A stretch of DNA of 38,387 bases, taken from an uncultured Bacillota bacterium (GTDB lineage: Bacteria; Bacillota_I; Bacilli_A; Erysipelotrichales; Erysipelotrichaceae). Position 1 is the first letter of the stretch. Every line of letters starts with the position of its first letter. The notes beneath the pieces are model-generated. The model did not search any database. It saw only the letters and a list, made by a program, of their open reading frames with translations, and was not told the origin of the DNA. Of this stretch, positions 2,516 through 8,748 are shown in pieces. The position numbers and the translations under genes are program-made. Where the stretch lies: contig CASEQH010000069.1 in the NCBI GenBank assembly GCA_949290085.1, positions 1 through 38,387 on the forward strand. The letters are read 5' to 3'.

Positions 2516-2860
2516 ATGTATAAGAAATATATTATGCCGATAATTGTCTTATTGATTATGTCTGTTGGCCTTAGATGGTTAGACCTAATCCTCACAGGGC
2601 AAATCGGTTTTATCATTATTACTGTTCTTAGAGCCTTGCTTCTATTCTGGTTTGGATTGACGCTCAATGTCACTCATCGCAGAAGAAATGAAACATGGCT
2701 TAGAAAGGTTATCATATCCTTTGTCTTCATCTTCTTTCTAGTATGGGACTTAGGCTATATCATGATACCAGAATTGAAAAATCTCTTTGATTCTATTGGC
2801 TTATATGGCTATATAGTTTACTTAATATACACTTATTGTGGTTGGGATTTCTTTGATTGA
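2516..2860 (+). CDS. Small integral membrane protein, function unknown
   Basis: A 114-residue protein that is mostly hydrophobic. Segments at about residues 5-20, 28-50, 66-85 and 92-108 look membrane-spanning, with a basic cytoplasmic patch THRRRNETWLRK in the middle. The start is supported by AAGGA 8 nt upstream and an extended -10 at 2480-2488. It runs convergently into folT, and the two coding regions overlap tail to tail by 28 bp with no terminator between them. I do not recognise a family. Its reading frame, promoter and ribosome-binding site make it a likely real gene. Confidence 0.6.
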   Translation: MYKKYIMPIIVLLIMSVGLRWLDLILTGQIGFIIITVLRALLLFWFGLTLNVTHRRRNETWLRKVIISFVFIFFLVWDLGYIMIPELKNLFDSIGLYGYIVYLIYTYCGWDFFD

Positions 2861-3387
2861 AAGCTTATTTTTTTATTTCCATCATCTTTAATTAAATCCA
2901 TCTTTATAAAATATGGATAGATTAGTTTATAGAAGATAATAAATAGGATTATTTCTATAGGTAATAAGATGATATTTTTTATACTTCCACTAATTAGATA
3001 ATAGACAAAGCCCTTAGAATATAAGATGGCTGACCAAAGACTATTCAAGATTATATTACAGAAGATATTTACCGAAGTCTTGGCGAGAATAATTCTAGTA
3101 ATAGTGACCTTCTTATTTAGGAATATTAGATAGATGGCCATACCGGCTAATGCCGTCAGAGTATAGCCGATAAAAAAAGGCCCTGTCGGATATATGAAGA
3201 ATGCTAATAAATCTTCGATTATAGCGTAACCCAAGGCAATTTTTGGCGGAAATATTATAGCGATATTCATCACGATTAAATATGTGAAGTAGACACGTAA
3301 ATTATCGCTGACTTGAATATAGAAAAAACTCAAGAATATATGTAAAGCCAGAAATAGAGATAAATAGGCTAGTTTTTTAGTCATCAT
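2833..3387 (-). CDS. folT: Folate-type ECF transporter S component
   Basis: A 184-residue protein with about six membrane helices. The pattern 'FxIxVSDNLRVYFTYLIVMNIAIIFPPKIAL' then 'IIEDLLAFFIYPTGPFF' and 'GYTLTALAGMAIY' is the signature of FolT-type substrate-binding (S) subunits. In this family the S unit captures folate and works with a shared EcfA-A'-T energising module, which is not in this window. The start is one of two adjacent ATGs (3387 or 3384). No Shine-Dalgarno is present; an extended -10 (TGG TAAAAT) ends 6 nt before the first ATG, so the mRNA is probably leaderless. The basic tail after residue 160 is variable. Confidence 0.8.
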   Translation of the reverse strand: MMTKKLAYLSLFLALHIFLSFFYIQVSDNLRVYFTYLIVMNIAIIFPPKIALGYAIIEDLLAFFIYPTGPFFIGYTLTALAGMAIYLIFLNKKVTITRIILAKTSVNIFCNIILNSLWSAILYSKGFVYYLISGSIKNIILLPIEIILFIIFYKLIYPYFIKMDLIKDDGNKKISFQSKKSQPQ

Positions 3388-3393
3388 GAAGTT

Positions 3394-3402
3394 ATTTTAC
3401 CA
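3394..3402 (-). promoter_or_regulatory. Extended -10 of folT, leaderless start
   Basis: On the minus strand TGG TAAAAT occupies 3402-3394, leaving 6 nt (AACTTC) before the ATG at 3387. The expected transcription start is the A of the start codon. Confidence 0.6.
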
Positions 3403-3408
3403 TGATTG

Positions 3409-3417
3409 TGTTAGAAT
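3409..3417 (+). promoter_or_regulatory. Extended -10 of trhP1, leaderless start
   Basis: TGT TAGAAT (3409-3417) is followed by ATCACT and then the ATG at 3424. This is the mirror image of the folT promoter within the same 36-bp intergenic region. Confidence 0.6.
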
Positions 3418-3423
3418 ATCACT

Positions 3424-4293
3424 ATGAATTTATTATGTACCTTATCGTCTAAAGATAGACTGGATACCATATTCCCTTATGTGGATGGTGTGATATGTGG
3501 TTCTTATTTTTCTGATCGCCACTACCATTCTCTTAGTGATATGCAATATATCGCCAAGAGATGCAAGGCTTTGAGTCTAGATTTTTATGTTTTGATGGAC
3601 ACAATGGTCAAAGAAGAAGATATACCGCTATTGTATGAATATTTATACTTTCTTAAAGATTTAGATGTCGATGGCATCTACTTTGCTGATTTAGCAGTTC
3701 TAGAGGCCGGAATAGAATTGGGCATAGAAAAAAAGATGATATATGAAAGTGATACATTGATGACTAATTCTCTGGATGCTTCTTTCTTTTTAAAAAAAGG
3801 TCTTAAATCTGTCGTTTTAGCTAAGGAGATCACTTTAGATGAGATGATGAAGATTGCGGATAATACTAAACATAGAGTAGATGTTCATCTATTTGGTTAT
3901 CAGAAGATGTCATCTTCAAAAAGGCACTTTCTCACTAATTATTTCAATCATTTAGCAAGCCCTAAAGACTTAAAAGATAATATGAACTTGCGCATTATTG
4001 AAGAGACGAGAAATTATTCTATGCCTATTTTAGAAAATGAATATGGCACTAAGATTTATTCTGACTATATTTTATGCATGTATGAGGAGAGTTTATTATT
4101 AGCTGACAAAATCAATAATGGCATCATCGATGACCTGTTTATCGATTTTGATATATTGATGACTGTGCTTAAAGATTATCGCAAGCTTAATAAAGATAAT
4201 GCAACAAAATTAGAAGAAGAATTAAAAAGTAAATATCATGATGTGACTTTTGATAAGGGATATCTATATCAAAAGACTAATATTACAAAGTAG
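3424..4293 (+). CDS. trhP1: U32-family protein, YrrN/TrhP1 type, tRNA U34 hydroxylation partner
   Basis: A 289-residue U32 'peptidase-family' protein. It has the TIM-barrel pattern of the short Bacillus YrrN-type members: VDGVICGSYFSDRHYH near the N-terminus, LDVDGIYFADLAVL in the middle and HLFGYQKMSSSKRHFLTNY near residue 160. In B. subtilis the YrrN/YrrO pair makes 5-hydroxyuridine at tRNA position 34 from prephenate. It lacks the cysteine cluster seen in the next gene, which fits the division between the two subunits. It heads a four-gene plus-strand operon. No ribosome-binding site is present; the -10 box lies 6 nt before the ATG. Functional transfer from B. subtilis is inference. Confidence 0.75.
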   Translation: MNLLCTLSSKDRLDTIFPYVDGVICGSYFSDRHYHSLSDMQYIAKRCKALSLDFYVLMDTMVKEEDIPLLYEYLYFLKDLDVDGIYFADLAVLEAGIELGIEKKMIYESDTLMTNSLDASFFLKKGLKSVVLAKEITLDEMMKIADNTKHRVDVHLFGYQKMSSSKRHFLTNYFNHLASPKDLKDNMNLRIIEETRNYSMPILENEYGTKIYSDYILCMYEESLLLADKINNGIIDDLFIDFDILMTVLKDYRKLNKDNATKLEEELKSKYHDVTFDKGYLYQKTNITK

Positions 4294-5499
4294 GTGGATA
4301 TGAAGAAGATAGAATTGTTGGCTCCTGCCAAGGATTTACATAAGGCTAAGATAGCTATTTTATATGGTGCAGATGCGGTTTATGTCGGTGGTAAACAATT
4401 TTCATTGCGTTCAAGAGCGTCTAATTTTGATTTAGCTGATATCGAGGAACTGGTTGAATTTGCCCATAAAAGAAATGCCAAGGTCTATGTGACTGTCAAT
4501 ATTGTCTTTCATGACGAAGACTTATATGGCATAAAAGAATACTTACAAAAATTAGATGATATGGGTATCGATGCCATCATTGTTGAGTCTTTAGGTATTG
4601 TGACCATATCTAAGAAGATGAATCTTAAATTTGAATGCCATATCTCTACGCAACTTTCTAGTCTTAATAGCCTGACTTGTGAACTTTTAAAATCTTATAA
4701 GGCAGATAGAGTAGTCTTGGGAAGAGAAGTATCGATGAAAGAGATAGAGATGATAGCTTCTAAGGTAGATGTTCCTCTAGAAGTATTTATCCATGGAGGA
4801 ATGTGCTCTAATTATTCTGGTCGTTGTACTTTATCTAATCGCATGACTTTAAGAGATGCTAATCGTGGTGGATGTGCGCAGAGTTGTCGTTGGAAATATC
4901 ATATTTATGAAAATGGCGAACTCATATCTGATAGGTCTTGTCCTTTATCGATGTCATCTAAGGACCTTAGGGCATCATCCTATATCGCTGATTTAATTAA
5001 GGCCAATGTGGCATCTTTGAAGATAGAGGGCCGAATGAAATCTGACTATTATATTGCACAAGTAGTCAAGACTTATCGCAAGATGATAGATGAGATTATG
5101 GATAAGGGCAATTTAGATGATGATAGAATTGCCTATTATGATAATGAATTATCTAAGGCTGAAAATAGACCGAGTGATGATGGCTTTTTTGCTGGCGACC
5201 CTGATGAGAGTAAACATCTCTACGGCATCAATGGAGCTGGGGTTACGCATGACTATGTAGCTTATGTCAAAGCTTATGATGAAGATAAAAAACTAGCTTT
5301 AGTCGAAGTTAAGAATAAGTTTGCCATTCATGATAAACTAGAAGTCTTTGGACCAAATATCGATAATGAAGTAATTGAAAATGTCTTGATGTTGAATGAG
5401 GAATGGGATTTAGTTGAAGTAGCTAATAAACCGACTGAATTATTGTATATTCATATTCCTTTTAAGGTTAGTGAACATGACATGATAAGGAAGGCTTAA
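4294..5499 (+). CDS. trhP2: U32-family protein, YrrO/TrhP2 type, with Fe-S cysteine cluster
   Basis: A 401-residue U32-family protein opening ELLAPAKDLHKAKIAILYGADAVYVGG, the hallmark N-terminus of this family. A cysteine cluster (MCSNYSGRC at about residue 169, then RGGCAQSC) is the likely iron-sulfur site. SLKIEGRMKS near residue 245 and the C-terminal beta domain are also typical. With the preceding gene it should form the prephenate-dependent tRNA U34 hydroxylase pair. The start is either GTG at 4294, immediately after the upstream TAG, or ATG at 4300; both have poor spacing to AGGTGG, so translation is probably coupled to trhP1. Confidence 0.85.
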   Translation: MDMKKIELLAPAKDLHKAKIAILYGADAVYVGGKQFSLRSRASNFDLADIEELVEFAHKRNAKVYVTVNIVFHDEDLYGIKEYLQKLDDMGIDAIIVESLGIVTISKKMNLKFECHISTQLSSLNSLTCELLKSYKADRVVLGREVSMKEIEMIASKVDVPLEVFIHGGMCSNYSGRCTLSNRMTLRDANRGGCAQSCRWKYHIYENGELISDRSCPLSMSSKDLRASSYIADLIKANVASLKIEGRMKSDYYIAQVVKTYRKMIDEIMDKGNLDDDRIAYYDNELSKAENRPSDDGFFAGDPDESKHLYGINGAGVTHDYVAYVKAYDEDKKLALVEVKNKFAIHDKLEVFGPNIDNEVIENVLMLNEEWDLVEVANKPTELLYIHIPFKVSEHDMIRKA

Positions 5500-5502
5500 A
5501 AG

Positions 5503-6219
5503 ATGATTATAGAAGGTTCTATTGCCATCAAGGCTGCTATCAAAGGGAATAACAGAAAGATAGATAAAGTTTATATCGATAAGCATAAAAGGACTAAGGA
5601 TTTTAATTATATTCGTTTTTTATGCCGTGAAAATAATATTGAAATACTCCCTGTTGATAGAGAATATATCAATAGTGAAGCCAAGGGCAGTAGTCATGGT
5701 GGCATTATCGCTTCTGTATCTTTGCGTGAGTTTGAGCCTATTACCGAATTAGTAAATACTAAATACTTATTTTATATTGACGGCATCGAAGACCCTTATA
5801 ATCTAGGCTATGTCTTAAGAACACTATTCGCTTTTGGCTTTAGGGATGTTATATTGCCAAAGCGAAATATGGAAAGTTTTGAAGCGACACTATTAAAATC
5901 ATCGGCTGGAGCCTATGATTTGATGAATATTTATTTAAGCGAAGATTTATCGAAGGATATCACTTATCTAAAAGCTATGAATTATCATATCTATGCCTTA
6001 AATCGTTCTGATTCTTCGATTGATATCTTTGATTGCCGATTCGAAGACAGGGCTTGTTTCTTAGTTGGTGGTGAGAAAAGAGGTATCTCATCACGCATTC
6101 TTAATGTAGTTGATACATCATTATATATACCTTATGGCAATGATTTTAAGATGGCATTAAGCGCCGCTAGTTCCACTGATGTGCTAGCGACCGTCGTATT
6201 TCAAGGAAGTAGAAAATGA
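5503..6219 (+). CDS. SpoU/TrmH-family RNA 2'-O-ribose methyltransferase
   Basis: A 238-residue SPOUT enzyme. An N-terminal substrate-binding domain (to about residue 75, with SHGGIIASV) resembles RlmB/TrmH-type L30e-like domains. Motif 1 is GIEDPYNLGYVLRT with its conserved Asn and Arg, motif 2 is FLVGGEKRGIS, and motif 3 is YIPYGNDFKMALSAASSTDV. It would transfer methyl from S-adenosylmethionine to a ribose in rRNA or tRNA; the target is not predictable here. Motif 3 normally reads IPM.....SLNVSVA, so the FKMALSAAS version is divergent. A good AAGGAAGG site lies 8 nt upstream. It overlaps the next gene as ATGA. Confidence 0.85.
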   Translation: MIIEGSIAIKAAIKGNNRKIDKVYIDKHKRTKDFNYIRFLCRENNIEILPVDREYINSEAKGSSHGGIIASVSLREFEPITELVNTKYLFYIDGIEDPYNLGYVLRTLFAFGFRDVILPKRNMESFEATLLKSSAGAYDLMNIYLSEDLSKDITYLKAMNYHIYALNRSDSSIDIFDCRFEDRACFLVGGEKRGISSRILNVVDTSLYIPYGNDFKMALSAASSTDVLATVVFQGSRK

Positions 6220-6938
6220 TTAGTTCTCTTAGTAATGATCGCGTTAAAAAGTGGATGAAATTATATATCAAGAAATATCGCCAGGATAATTATTTAATAC
6301 TCGATAGCGATATTTGTCTTAAAGCTTACCAAAATGGTTTTTTAGATACTTTAATCTATGTGGGTGCTAAACCCTTTGATTTTGATAATGCCTTTGAAGT
6401 GAGTGCAGAAGTAATGGATAAACTCACTAAAGGAAAGATGACTGCTTATATAGGCATAGGCAAAAAGAAAGAACTTGCAATAAGCAAAAAGGTAGAAAGA
6501 ATCTTATTATTAGATGAACTACAGGACCCTTTAAACATTGGTAAGATTATTAATTGTGCTTATTTATTTGGTTTTGATGTTATATATCTTTCTAAAAATT
6601 GTGCTGATGTCTTTAGTGAAAAGAGTGTCTTACAATCTGGCGGCGCTATCTTTAAGATGCCTCTATATTATGTAGATTTGGAGGATATAATCTTAAAATT
6701 ACAAAATGAAGGTTTTAAAGTTTATGCCACTGGCCTTAGAAGAGACAATTATGAATTAGCTGATGTCAAAGCTGAATCTAAGATGGCTTTTATATTAGGA
6801 AATGAAGGAAGTGGCGTAAGAGAAAAGATTATGGACATGTCTGATGGCATAATAAAAATAGATATGCGCAACATCGACTCACTAAATGTAGCCATGGCTG
6901 CTTCTATCATCATGCATCGCTTTAGTAAAGAATTCTAA
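6216..6938 (+). CDS. Second SpoU/TrmH-family methyltransferase, motif-1 arginine absent
   Basis: A 240-residue paralogue-like SPOUT protein. Motif 1 is QDPLNIGKIINCAYLFG, motif 2 FILGNEGSGV and motif 3 KIDMRNIDSLNVAMAASIIMHRF, the last being canonical SLNVA. The arginine that normally follows in motif 1 (IIRTA in TrmH/RlmB relatives) is Asn-Cys here. That Arg is implicated in catalysis in characterised members, so activity or target may differ. It starts at an ATGA overlap with the preceding methyltransferase, with AAGGA 8 nt upstream. It is the last gene of the operon and overlaps acyP tail to tail by 17 bp. Confidence 0.85.
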   Translation: MISSLSNDRVKKWMKLYIKKYRQDNYLILDSDICLKAYQNGFLDTLIYVGAKPFDFDNAFEVSAEVMDKLTKGKMTAYIGIGKKKELAISKKVERILLLDELQDPLNIGKIINCAYLFGFDVIYLSKNCADVFSEKSVLQSGGAIFKMPLYYVDLEDIILKLQNEGFKVYATGLRRDNYELADVKAESKMAFILGNEGSGVREKIMDMSDGIIKIDMRNIDSLNVAMAASIIMHRFSKEF

Positions 6939-7482: not shown

Positions 7483-8748
7483 TTATTTTTTGATTAGATC
7501 CGGAGTAAGAGTCACATTATCCGGGTCTATTTCTTTTATATGAAGTCTTTCTAATAATTGAGACTTTGGTTCAAAAAACTTAAAGACTTCAATTGGGCTT
7601 TTATCGTTTAATGAACCTCGACCATAAGAATTGATATGAGAGAAGATGAGGTCAAGATCATCTTGTCCTTTAAGACCTAGGGCATATAAATCTTTTTCCT
7701 TAGGACATATGCATCTTAGTAAGCGATGGTTATTTTCAACGTGGGGCTTTTGCCAACTTGCCATGGGGTCACAATAGAAAATTTTTGAACCTAAAGATTC
7801 AATTTCATTAGCCATTGTGAATTCGCTTCCTCTATCAGTTAAGATGATGGCTAGATACTTTTTAAATAAATCATGTCCTAAAAGATTATGAATAATTTTT
7901 ACGCCTTCATACATCGATTTGGCATTTTTCTCTTTGTGATAGATACCAACCATGAGATTATACTTAGTAAATTGAAAGGTCTGAATAAAAGGGCTATTTG
8001 TCACATCGTTATAGACCGTATCCATTTCGACAATATCTTGATAGGGATGAGATGCCACATACTTTTCAAAGTCATCATAAGTTCGCTCTTTAAGATATCT
8101 TCTATCTTCTCGCTTTTTATAAAGGTTTTTCTTTTTCTTAGTCATCTTTCTTTTGACTTTAAGTCGTAAGCTTAAGTTATCTATTCCAAATGGAGAAAAG
8201 ACACCATCTTCAATAAAGTTATATATTGTCTTTTCACAATATGGTATCTCACTATGATTAGATAGGATTATAGCTATAGATTGACCTTTTAAAAGTAAGG
8301 GTTTTAAGATAGCGGCTAGTTTTTGAGCTTCACTATAAGTAATATCTCTTCCTTCTCTTAAACTATGAAGATCTTCTTCGTATTCTTTTTGAGCGCGACT
8401 AGCTTCATAAATCTTCTTATCTAGTTTACAAGAATGATATATATCGCAACCATTACATACACCACTCACTTTATCTTTTCGTTTACAGCCTATCTTTTGG
8501 ATATTTTCACATATCTTTGTGCAATAAGTGTTATAACCGCAATCTGCAATGTGAGTACAATCATAAGTCCCTTTACCTTTGCCATAGATGTTGCGAGGTA
8601 CAATTTTGACGTGTCTTTTAATCTCTTTTAGAATCGTAGACTTATCTTTATTCAAAGTGTCAGCTATTGCCTTTAAACAAGCGCCATTACTAAGACCTTT
8701 CTCGATGGTGATTCTATCATCAAGTGTTAGATGTTTATTATTCGACAT
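7483..8748 (-). CDS. IS30-family DDE transposase
   Basis: A 421-residue transposase. The N-terminus LTLDDRITIEKGLSNGACLKAIADTL and DKSTILKEIKRH is the helix-turn-helix typical of IS30 proteins. It is followed by a cysteine-rich insert (about residues 60-105) and the catalytic DDE core: EMDTVY, LTDRGSEF, and KPHVENNHRLLR with its Glu. The C-terminus SPIEVFKFF is also canonical. The length is normal to slightly long for the family and no frameshift or stop interrupts it, so it may be active. An AAGGAG site lies 10 nt before the ATG. It sits between two host genes, acyP and the PBP, without disrupting either. Confidence 0.95.
   Translation of the reverse strand: MSNNKHLTLDDRITIEKGLSNGACLKAIADTLNKDKSTILKEIKRHVKIVPRNIYGKGKGTYDCTHIADCGYNTYCTKICENIQKIGCKRKDKVSGVCNGCDIYHSCKLDKKIYEASRAQKEYEEDLHSLREGRDITYSEAQKLAAILKPLLLKGQSIAIILSNHSEIPYCEKTIYNFIEDGVFSPFGIDNLSLRLKVKRKMTKKKKNLYKKREDRRYLKERTYDDFEKYVASHPYQDIVEMDTVYNDVTNSPFIQTFQFTKYNLMVGIYHKEKNAKSMYEGVKIIHNLLGHDLFKKYLAIILTDRGSEFTMANEIESLGSKIFYCDPMASWQKPHVENNHRLLRCICPKEKDLYALGLKGQDDLDLIFSHINSYGRGSLNDKSPIEVFKFFEPKSQLLERLHIKEIDPDNVTLTPDLIKK

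Follow-up and report, generated by a model that had tools for sequence, protein, structure and literature searches.

Among known bacterial genes, those of the leaderless TANNNT type come closest to the arrangement described here. According to the available text of Zheng et al. 2011 (PMC3160421), a TANNNT box lies some 12 bp before the start of such genes, and 56 of 209 Firmicutes genomes are of the leaderless type, concentrated in Lactobacillales and Mycoplasma. A second point of comparison is provided by five E. coli bidirectional promoters (Warman et al. 2026; PMC12825309), in which, as far as the accessible part of that article goes, the divergent starts are likewise too close for two polymerases together, transcription at basal activity is too weak to make polymerases compete, and strong activation of one side is needed before the partner is repressed. 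As to the genes themselves, folT with the same divergent neighbour is found in relatives under control of the THF riboswitch (Rfam RF01831). In B. subtilis, following the portion of PMC6599085 at hand, TrhP1 corresponds to YrrO, which has a C-terminal motif, and TrhP2 to YrrN, which has U32 only.

In the window, by which we mean the whole analysed stretch of 38,387 nucleotides, folT and a U32 tRNA-hydroxylase gene diverge from an ATG-to-ATG interval of exactly 36 bp (Table 1). One strand of the gap reads TGGTAAAAT-N6-ATG and the opposite strand TGTTAGAAT-N6-ATG (TGT-TAGAAT-ATCACT-ATG on the plus strand, TGG-TAAAAT-AACTTC-ATG on the minus strand). The original prediction of 36 bp between the ATGs, a TG-extended -10 ending 6 nt before each of them and hexamers 12 bp apart is thus confirmed in the sequence. 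The two hexamers do not overlap, the predicted starts lie 37 positions apart, and no Shine-Dalgarno (SD) sequence precedes either start in the gap, both starts being scored as leaderless and not SD. The gene called trhP1 in the prediction has the U32 domain only and is therefore of the TrhP2/YrrN type under the published naming; it forms with the next gene a tandem pair in the same arrangement as B. subtilis yrrN-yrrO. This naming rests on domain content and the available text of PMC6599085, and the NF011996 match of the second gene is under the NF011996 cut-off. Downstream of the hydroxylase pair, two SpoU-type methyltransferase genes stand in tandem (window 5503-6938).

Table 1. Features of the divergent gap and its flanking genes, in window coordinates
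Feature	Position	Strand	Size	Basis
Divergent folT/hydroxylase gap, both promoters inside	3388..3423	.	36 bp	
folT, folate ECF transporter S component	2833..3387	-	184 aa	TIGR04518, 66.3 bits (cut-off 60, exceeded)
Discriminator, folT side; predicted transcription start at A of ATG 3387	3388..3393	-	6 nt	Sequence; start inferred
folT -10 TAAAAT, ending 6 nt 5' of its own ATG	3394..3399	-		Sequence; TANNNT-N6-ATG in 9/10 compact genomes, N7 in the tenth
TGG extension of folT -10	3400..3402	-		Sequence; TG in 4/10 compact genomes, by eye
TGT extension of hydroxylase -10 (in TGTGT, TRTG type)	3409..3411	+		Sequence; TG in 10/10 compact genomes, by eye
Hydroxylase -10 TAGAAT, ending 6 nt 5' of its own ATG	3412..3417	+		Sequence; TANNNT-N6-ATG in 10/10 compact genomes
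Discriminator, hydroxylase side; predicted transcription start at A of ATG 3424	3418..3423	+	6 nt	Sequence; start inferred
Peptidase U32 protein, TrhP2/YrrN type (U32 domain only)	3424..4293	+	289 aa	PF01136, 88.8 bits; naming from PMC6599085
TrhP1/YrrO-type hydroxylase (U32 + U32_C), second gene; SD-like GTAGGTGG before start, by eye	4300..5499	+		PF01136, PF16325

On both sides of the gap a -10 box ends some 6 nt upstream of the start codon, as in leaderless genes, and on both strands TG stands one base before the -10 with a weak or absent -35, as in extended -10 promoters. Each -35 region had been expected to lie within or beside the other gene; with spacers of 16-18 bp both fall instead within the gap, over the -10 and discriminator of the other promoter. 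Their agreement with TTGACA is 2-3 of 6 bases on the hydroxylase side and 2-4 of 6 on the folT side in the six genomes printed (2/6 and 4/6, respectively, in this genome), and with such poor matches both promoters look like the extended -10 type without a real -35. The window contains a single mirrored pattern with the same spacing (TANNAT type), against a mean of 0.02 in 100 shuffles, two of which contained one. A generic promoter scan of the window picks up the folT site (9/12, with TG), but such matches are at background, with 48 found versus 45.4 expected. This background level and the AT-rich region would both suit another reading, that transcription starts further upstream, inside the opposite gene, that the -10-like sites are chance matches, and that translation proceeds without SD from a long leader.

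Compact-gap genera have a genome-wide SD-poor leaderless class with an extended -10 ending 6 nt before the ATG. Whole-genome counts of TGNTANAAT-N6-ATG against an N9 control are 31 versus 10 in this genome (G000), 33 versus 11 in G001 and 48 versus 4 in G003; for genus g46 they are 36 versus 8 (G046), 18 versus 7 (G084), 42 versus 13 (G108), 24 versus 9 (G129) and 26 versus 6 (G143). No excess of N6 over N9 is seen in the whole genomes of G053 (25 versus 28), G045 (22 versus 19), G021 (26 versus 25) and G031 (5 versus 13), so the leaderless class varies between genera of the family. A very strong leaderless signature was noticed in G040, with 65 N6 sites versus 6 N9 sites. In sampled stretches, analysed with a simple ORF caller and with the N6 signal set against its own mean over k = 8-30, the values are 37 versus 9.9 in G046, 43 versus 12.9 in G003, 21 versus 9.7 in G001 and 11 versus 4.4 in G091, while the sampled signal is not above the mean in G038 (2 versus 4.4) and G053 (1 versus 3.6). 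For the sample of this genome the plain N6 form gives 13 versus 8.1 expected (p 0.07, not significant) and the TG form 5 versus 0.9 (p 0.0025). The TG form was not found in the sample of G091, a member of a leaderless genus, yet genome-wide it amounts there to 42 versus 4. SD sites accompany 1/13 of the N6-signal genes in G000, 1/21 in G001, 3/37 in G046 and 0/43 in G003, as against 131/217, 131/272, 154/293 and 120/293 of all scored genes in the same samples.

Box, position, TG peak in low-GC genomes and absence of SD are all shared with the leaderless genes of PMC3160421. The present case differs in that both flanks of a divergent 36-bp gap have these features, and in belonging to Erysipelotrichaceae, a family not named in the available text of that paper. 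Among the matches listed by a literature search (subscription papers mostly outside its reach) no paper dealt with leaderless genes of Erysipelotrichaceae, and a search of the same reach joining leaderless with divergent or bidirectional found none.

Two family searches were run over 145 genomes, and adjacent divergent pairs were then counted by eye among the matches listed. On this basis folT and the hydroxylase gene are adjacent and divergent in at least 26 genomes of ten genera, to which weak hydroxylase matches may add further pairs; among these matches, 7 pairs are compact (this genome, G001 and five of genus g46) and 19 have a longer gap. G078, G103, G125 and G021, where the two genes diverge but lie 1.5 to 1.9 kb apart, were left out of the counts. 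A scan of named genomes (27 loci, six others of which are G genomes already in the 145-genome set) yielded three further compact loci, in Erysipelotrichaceae or Bacillota MAGs, which brings the compact genomes to ten. Eight of these have a 36-bp gap, one has 37 bp (CASEHR010000138) and one 56 bp (JAQXNC010000103). Conservation of the gap length and of both -10s had been proposed as a check: the -10s at their N6 distance came through it almost completely (Table 1), whereas 36 bp proved common and not fixed. By eye, the folT-side TG is present in this genome, G001, G143 and JAQXNC103 and absent in the other six. Across the eight 36-bp gaps mean identity is 85% in the -10 hexamers versus 53% elsewhere in the gap, the genomes being related and the count therefore not independent. 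A stricter mirrored pattern occurs at 8 places in 7 of the 145 sampled family genomes, five of the eight being the folT/hydroxylase pair, and its reversed-pattern control occurs 0 times in the same set.

The conservation over ten genomes and the SD-poor genome-wide class with the same spacing support the predicted pair of mirrored leaderless extended -10 promoters. Upstream starts with long leaders are, on the same grounds, unlikely: the N6 spacing is exact on both strands over the ten genomes, the N6 class is SD-poor throughout the genome, and the -10 hexamers are better conserved than the rest of the gap.

Matches to the THF riboswitch (RF01831) are found in 79 of the 145 genomes, 72 of them over the Rfam cut-off. 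Among the matches listed, the riboswitch lies inside the folT-hydroxylase gap in 17 of 19 longer-gap relatives (10 matches exceed the cut-off and 7 fall short of it) and in 0 of the 7 sampled compact genomes; upstream of folT, RF01831 has no match in the window or in this genome, nor, at E up to 5, in the ten compact loci. The compact genomes, a small group of gut bacteria, thus differ from the riboswitch-controlled folT of their relatives in having neither the riboswitch nor the SD leader. Leaderless folT calls in G124, G075, G032, SVBN21 and JAFUCL125 were rejected by eye as internal ATGs with SD-led starts upstream, and the script gap lengths for these genomes are too long. G075 and G032 (loci L221 and L222) have no THF riboswitch match and keep the SD leader of folT, which makes riboswitch loss and leader loss separable. 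Elsewhere in the window an FMN riboswitch was detected (RF00050, 17188-17302, minus strand, 100.8 bits).

The original prediction had named long, SD-bearing gaps in related genomes as evidence against it. Such relatives do exist, folT being SD-led in all 19 of the sampled longer-gap relatives among the matches listed (three corrected by eye), but they belong to other lineages on the FolT tree, so that the compact gap would be derived rather than erroneous. The ten compact rows form one side of a branch in the FolT tree (support 100/99), and a single loss of riboswitch and leader on the FolT lineage is the best reading of these sequences. In the hydroxylase tree the compact group is not one branch and needs 2 changes, because rows of genus g19 fall among the compact rows. 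In g19 the hydroxylase gene is leaderless-like in 3/3 genomes while the gap is long and riboswitch-bearing, which suggests that the hydroxylase side became leaderless first and that the folT side changed later. Dihydropteroate synthase (TIGR01496) reaches the cut-off in 0 of the 145 family genomes (5 weak matches) versus 12 of 14 control genomes; hence the family looks folate-auxotrophic and appears dependent on folate uptake, and FolT probably matters greatly in it.

The mirrored layout itself also occurs at other loci. In seven sampled genomes 10 mirrored leaderless pairs were seen versus 6.7 expected if the sides are independent (a comparison of small numbers); their gaps range from 34 to 76 bp. 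This same genome also has another mirrored leaderless gap of exactly 36 bp (G000:C63:3826-3867; locus L171, gap 1504-1539); its flanks, labelled by eye, are P-loop kinase-like (minus) and VanZ-like (plus) and unrelated to folT and the hydroxylase. A special module was considered for mirrored pairs and rejected, their frequency being about what independence predicts, and the idea of a fixed 36-bp spacing as a functional lock is weakened by the 37- and 56-bp gaps and by the range of the other pairs. With pair frequency near independence and gaps this variable, such mirrored pairs seem to arise as a by-product where closely spaced divergent genes both use leaderless promoters, a gap of about 34 bp being the lower limit.

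Geometry and the size of the polymerase footprint imply that two polymerases would exclude each other at this gap. The original prediction took this further, suggesting that folate uptake and tRNA hydroxylation may be reciprocally expressed; in such a switch the mirrored promoters would compete for RNA polymerase and set the two functions in opposition. The predicted footprints nearly coincide, and both the prevalence of the 36-bp gap in compact genomes and its recurrence at an unrelated gene pair of the same genome would agree with such a switch. We nevertheless hold it to be improbable: two compact genomes depart from 36 bp, mirrored pairs are about as frequent as expected by chance and variable in gap, and in the accessible text of PMC12825309 none of the five E. 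coli promoters tested shows competition at basal activity. Given these E. coli promoters without mutual effect at basal activity, reciprocal expression is an unsupported possibility. It is similarly improbable that, on one Erysipelotrichaceae lineage, the riboswitch gave way to a spacing-constrained pair of leaderless promoters set head to head, and that polymerase exclusion in the 36-bp gap and leaderless translation now tie tRNA hydroxylation to folate uptake.

A small region with mirrored -10 elements, one on each strand, also recalls a pseudo-symmetric bidirectional promoter, that is, one site recruiting polymerase in both orientations. Such promoters have overlapping symmetric elements and, in the available text of PMC12825309, start distances most often of 18 bp and frequently also of 10 or 23 bp. 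Here 37 positions separate the predicted starts and 12 bp the two -10s, which do not overlap; this explanation is very unlikely. The same accessible text contains the word 'leaderless' 0 times.

We therefore favour, with good though not full confidence, two extended -10 promoters arranged head to head in minimal space, with both first genes leaderless, the riboswitch and leader having been lost on one FolT lineage. The A of each ATG would be the first transcribed base, giving leaderless mRNAs for both first genes, members of what appears to be a minority class in this genome. In the layout common in the family the gap measures roughly 200 bp, and folT lies behind a THF riboswitch and SD leader; on one FolT lineage, if the direction of change is as we infer, the leader would have been lost and the folT -10 moved directly to the start codon. 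Folate uptake would thereby have lost its cis-acting sensor of folate. Only one polymerase would fit on the gap at any time and, the promoters presumably being weak and constitutive, the two genes are probably expressed independently.

The locus offers a comparative case, in which a riboswitch- and SD-controlled vitamin transporter gene can be set against the same gene in leaderless form, without riboswitch and with its neighbour kept. A leaderless gene class, indicated in several Erysipelotrichaceae genera, also bears on start-codon annotation and on the reading of promoters in compact genomes. Elsewhere in the window (7483-8748, minus strand) an ORF resembles, by eye, an IS30-type transposase.
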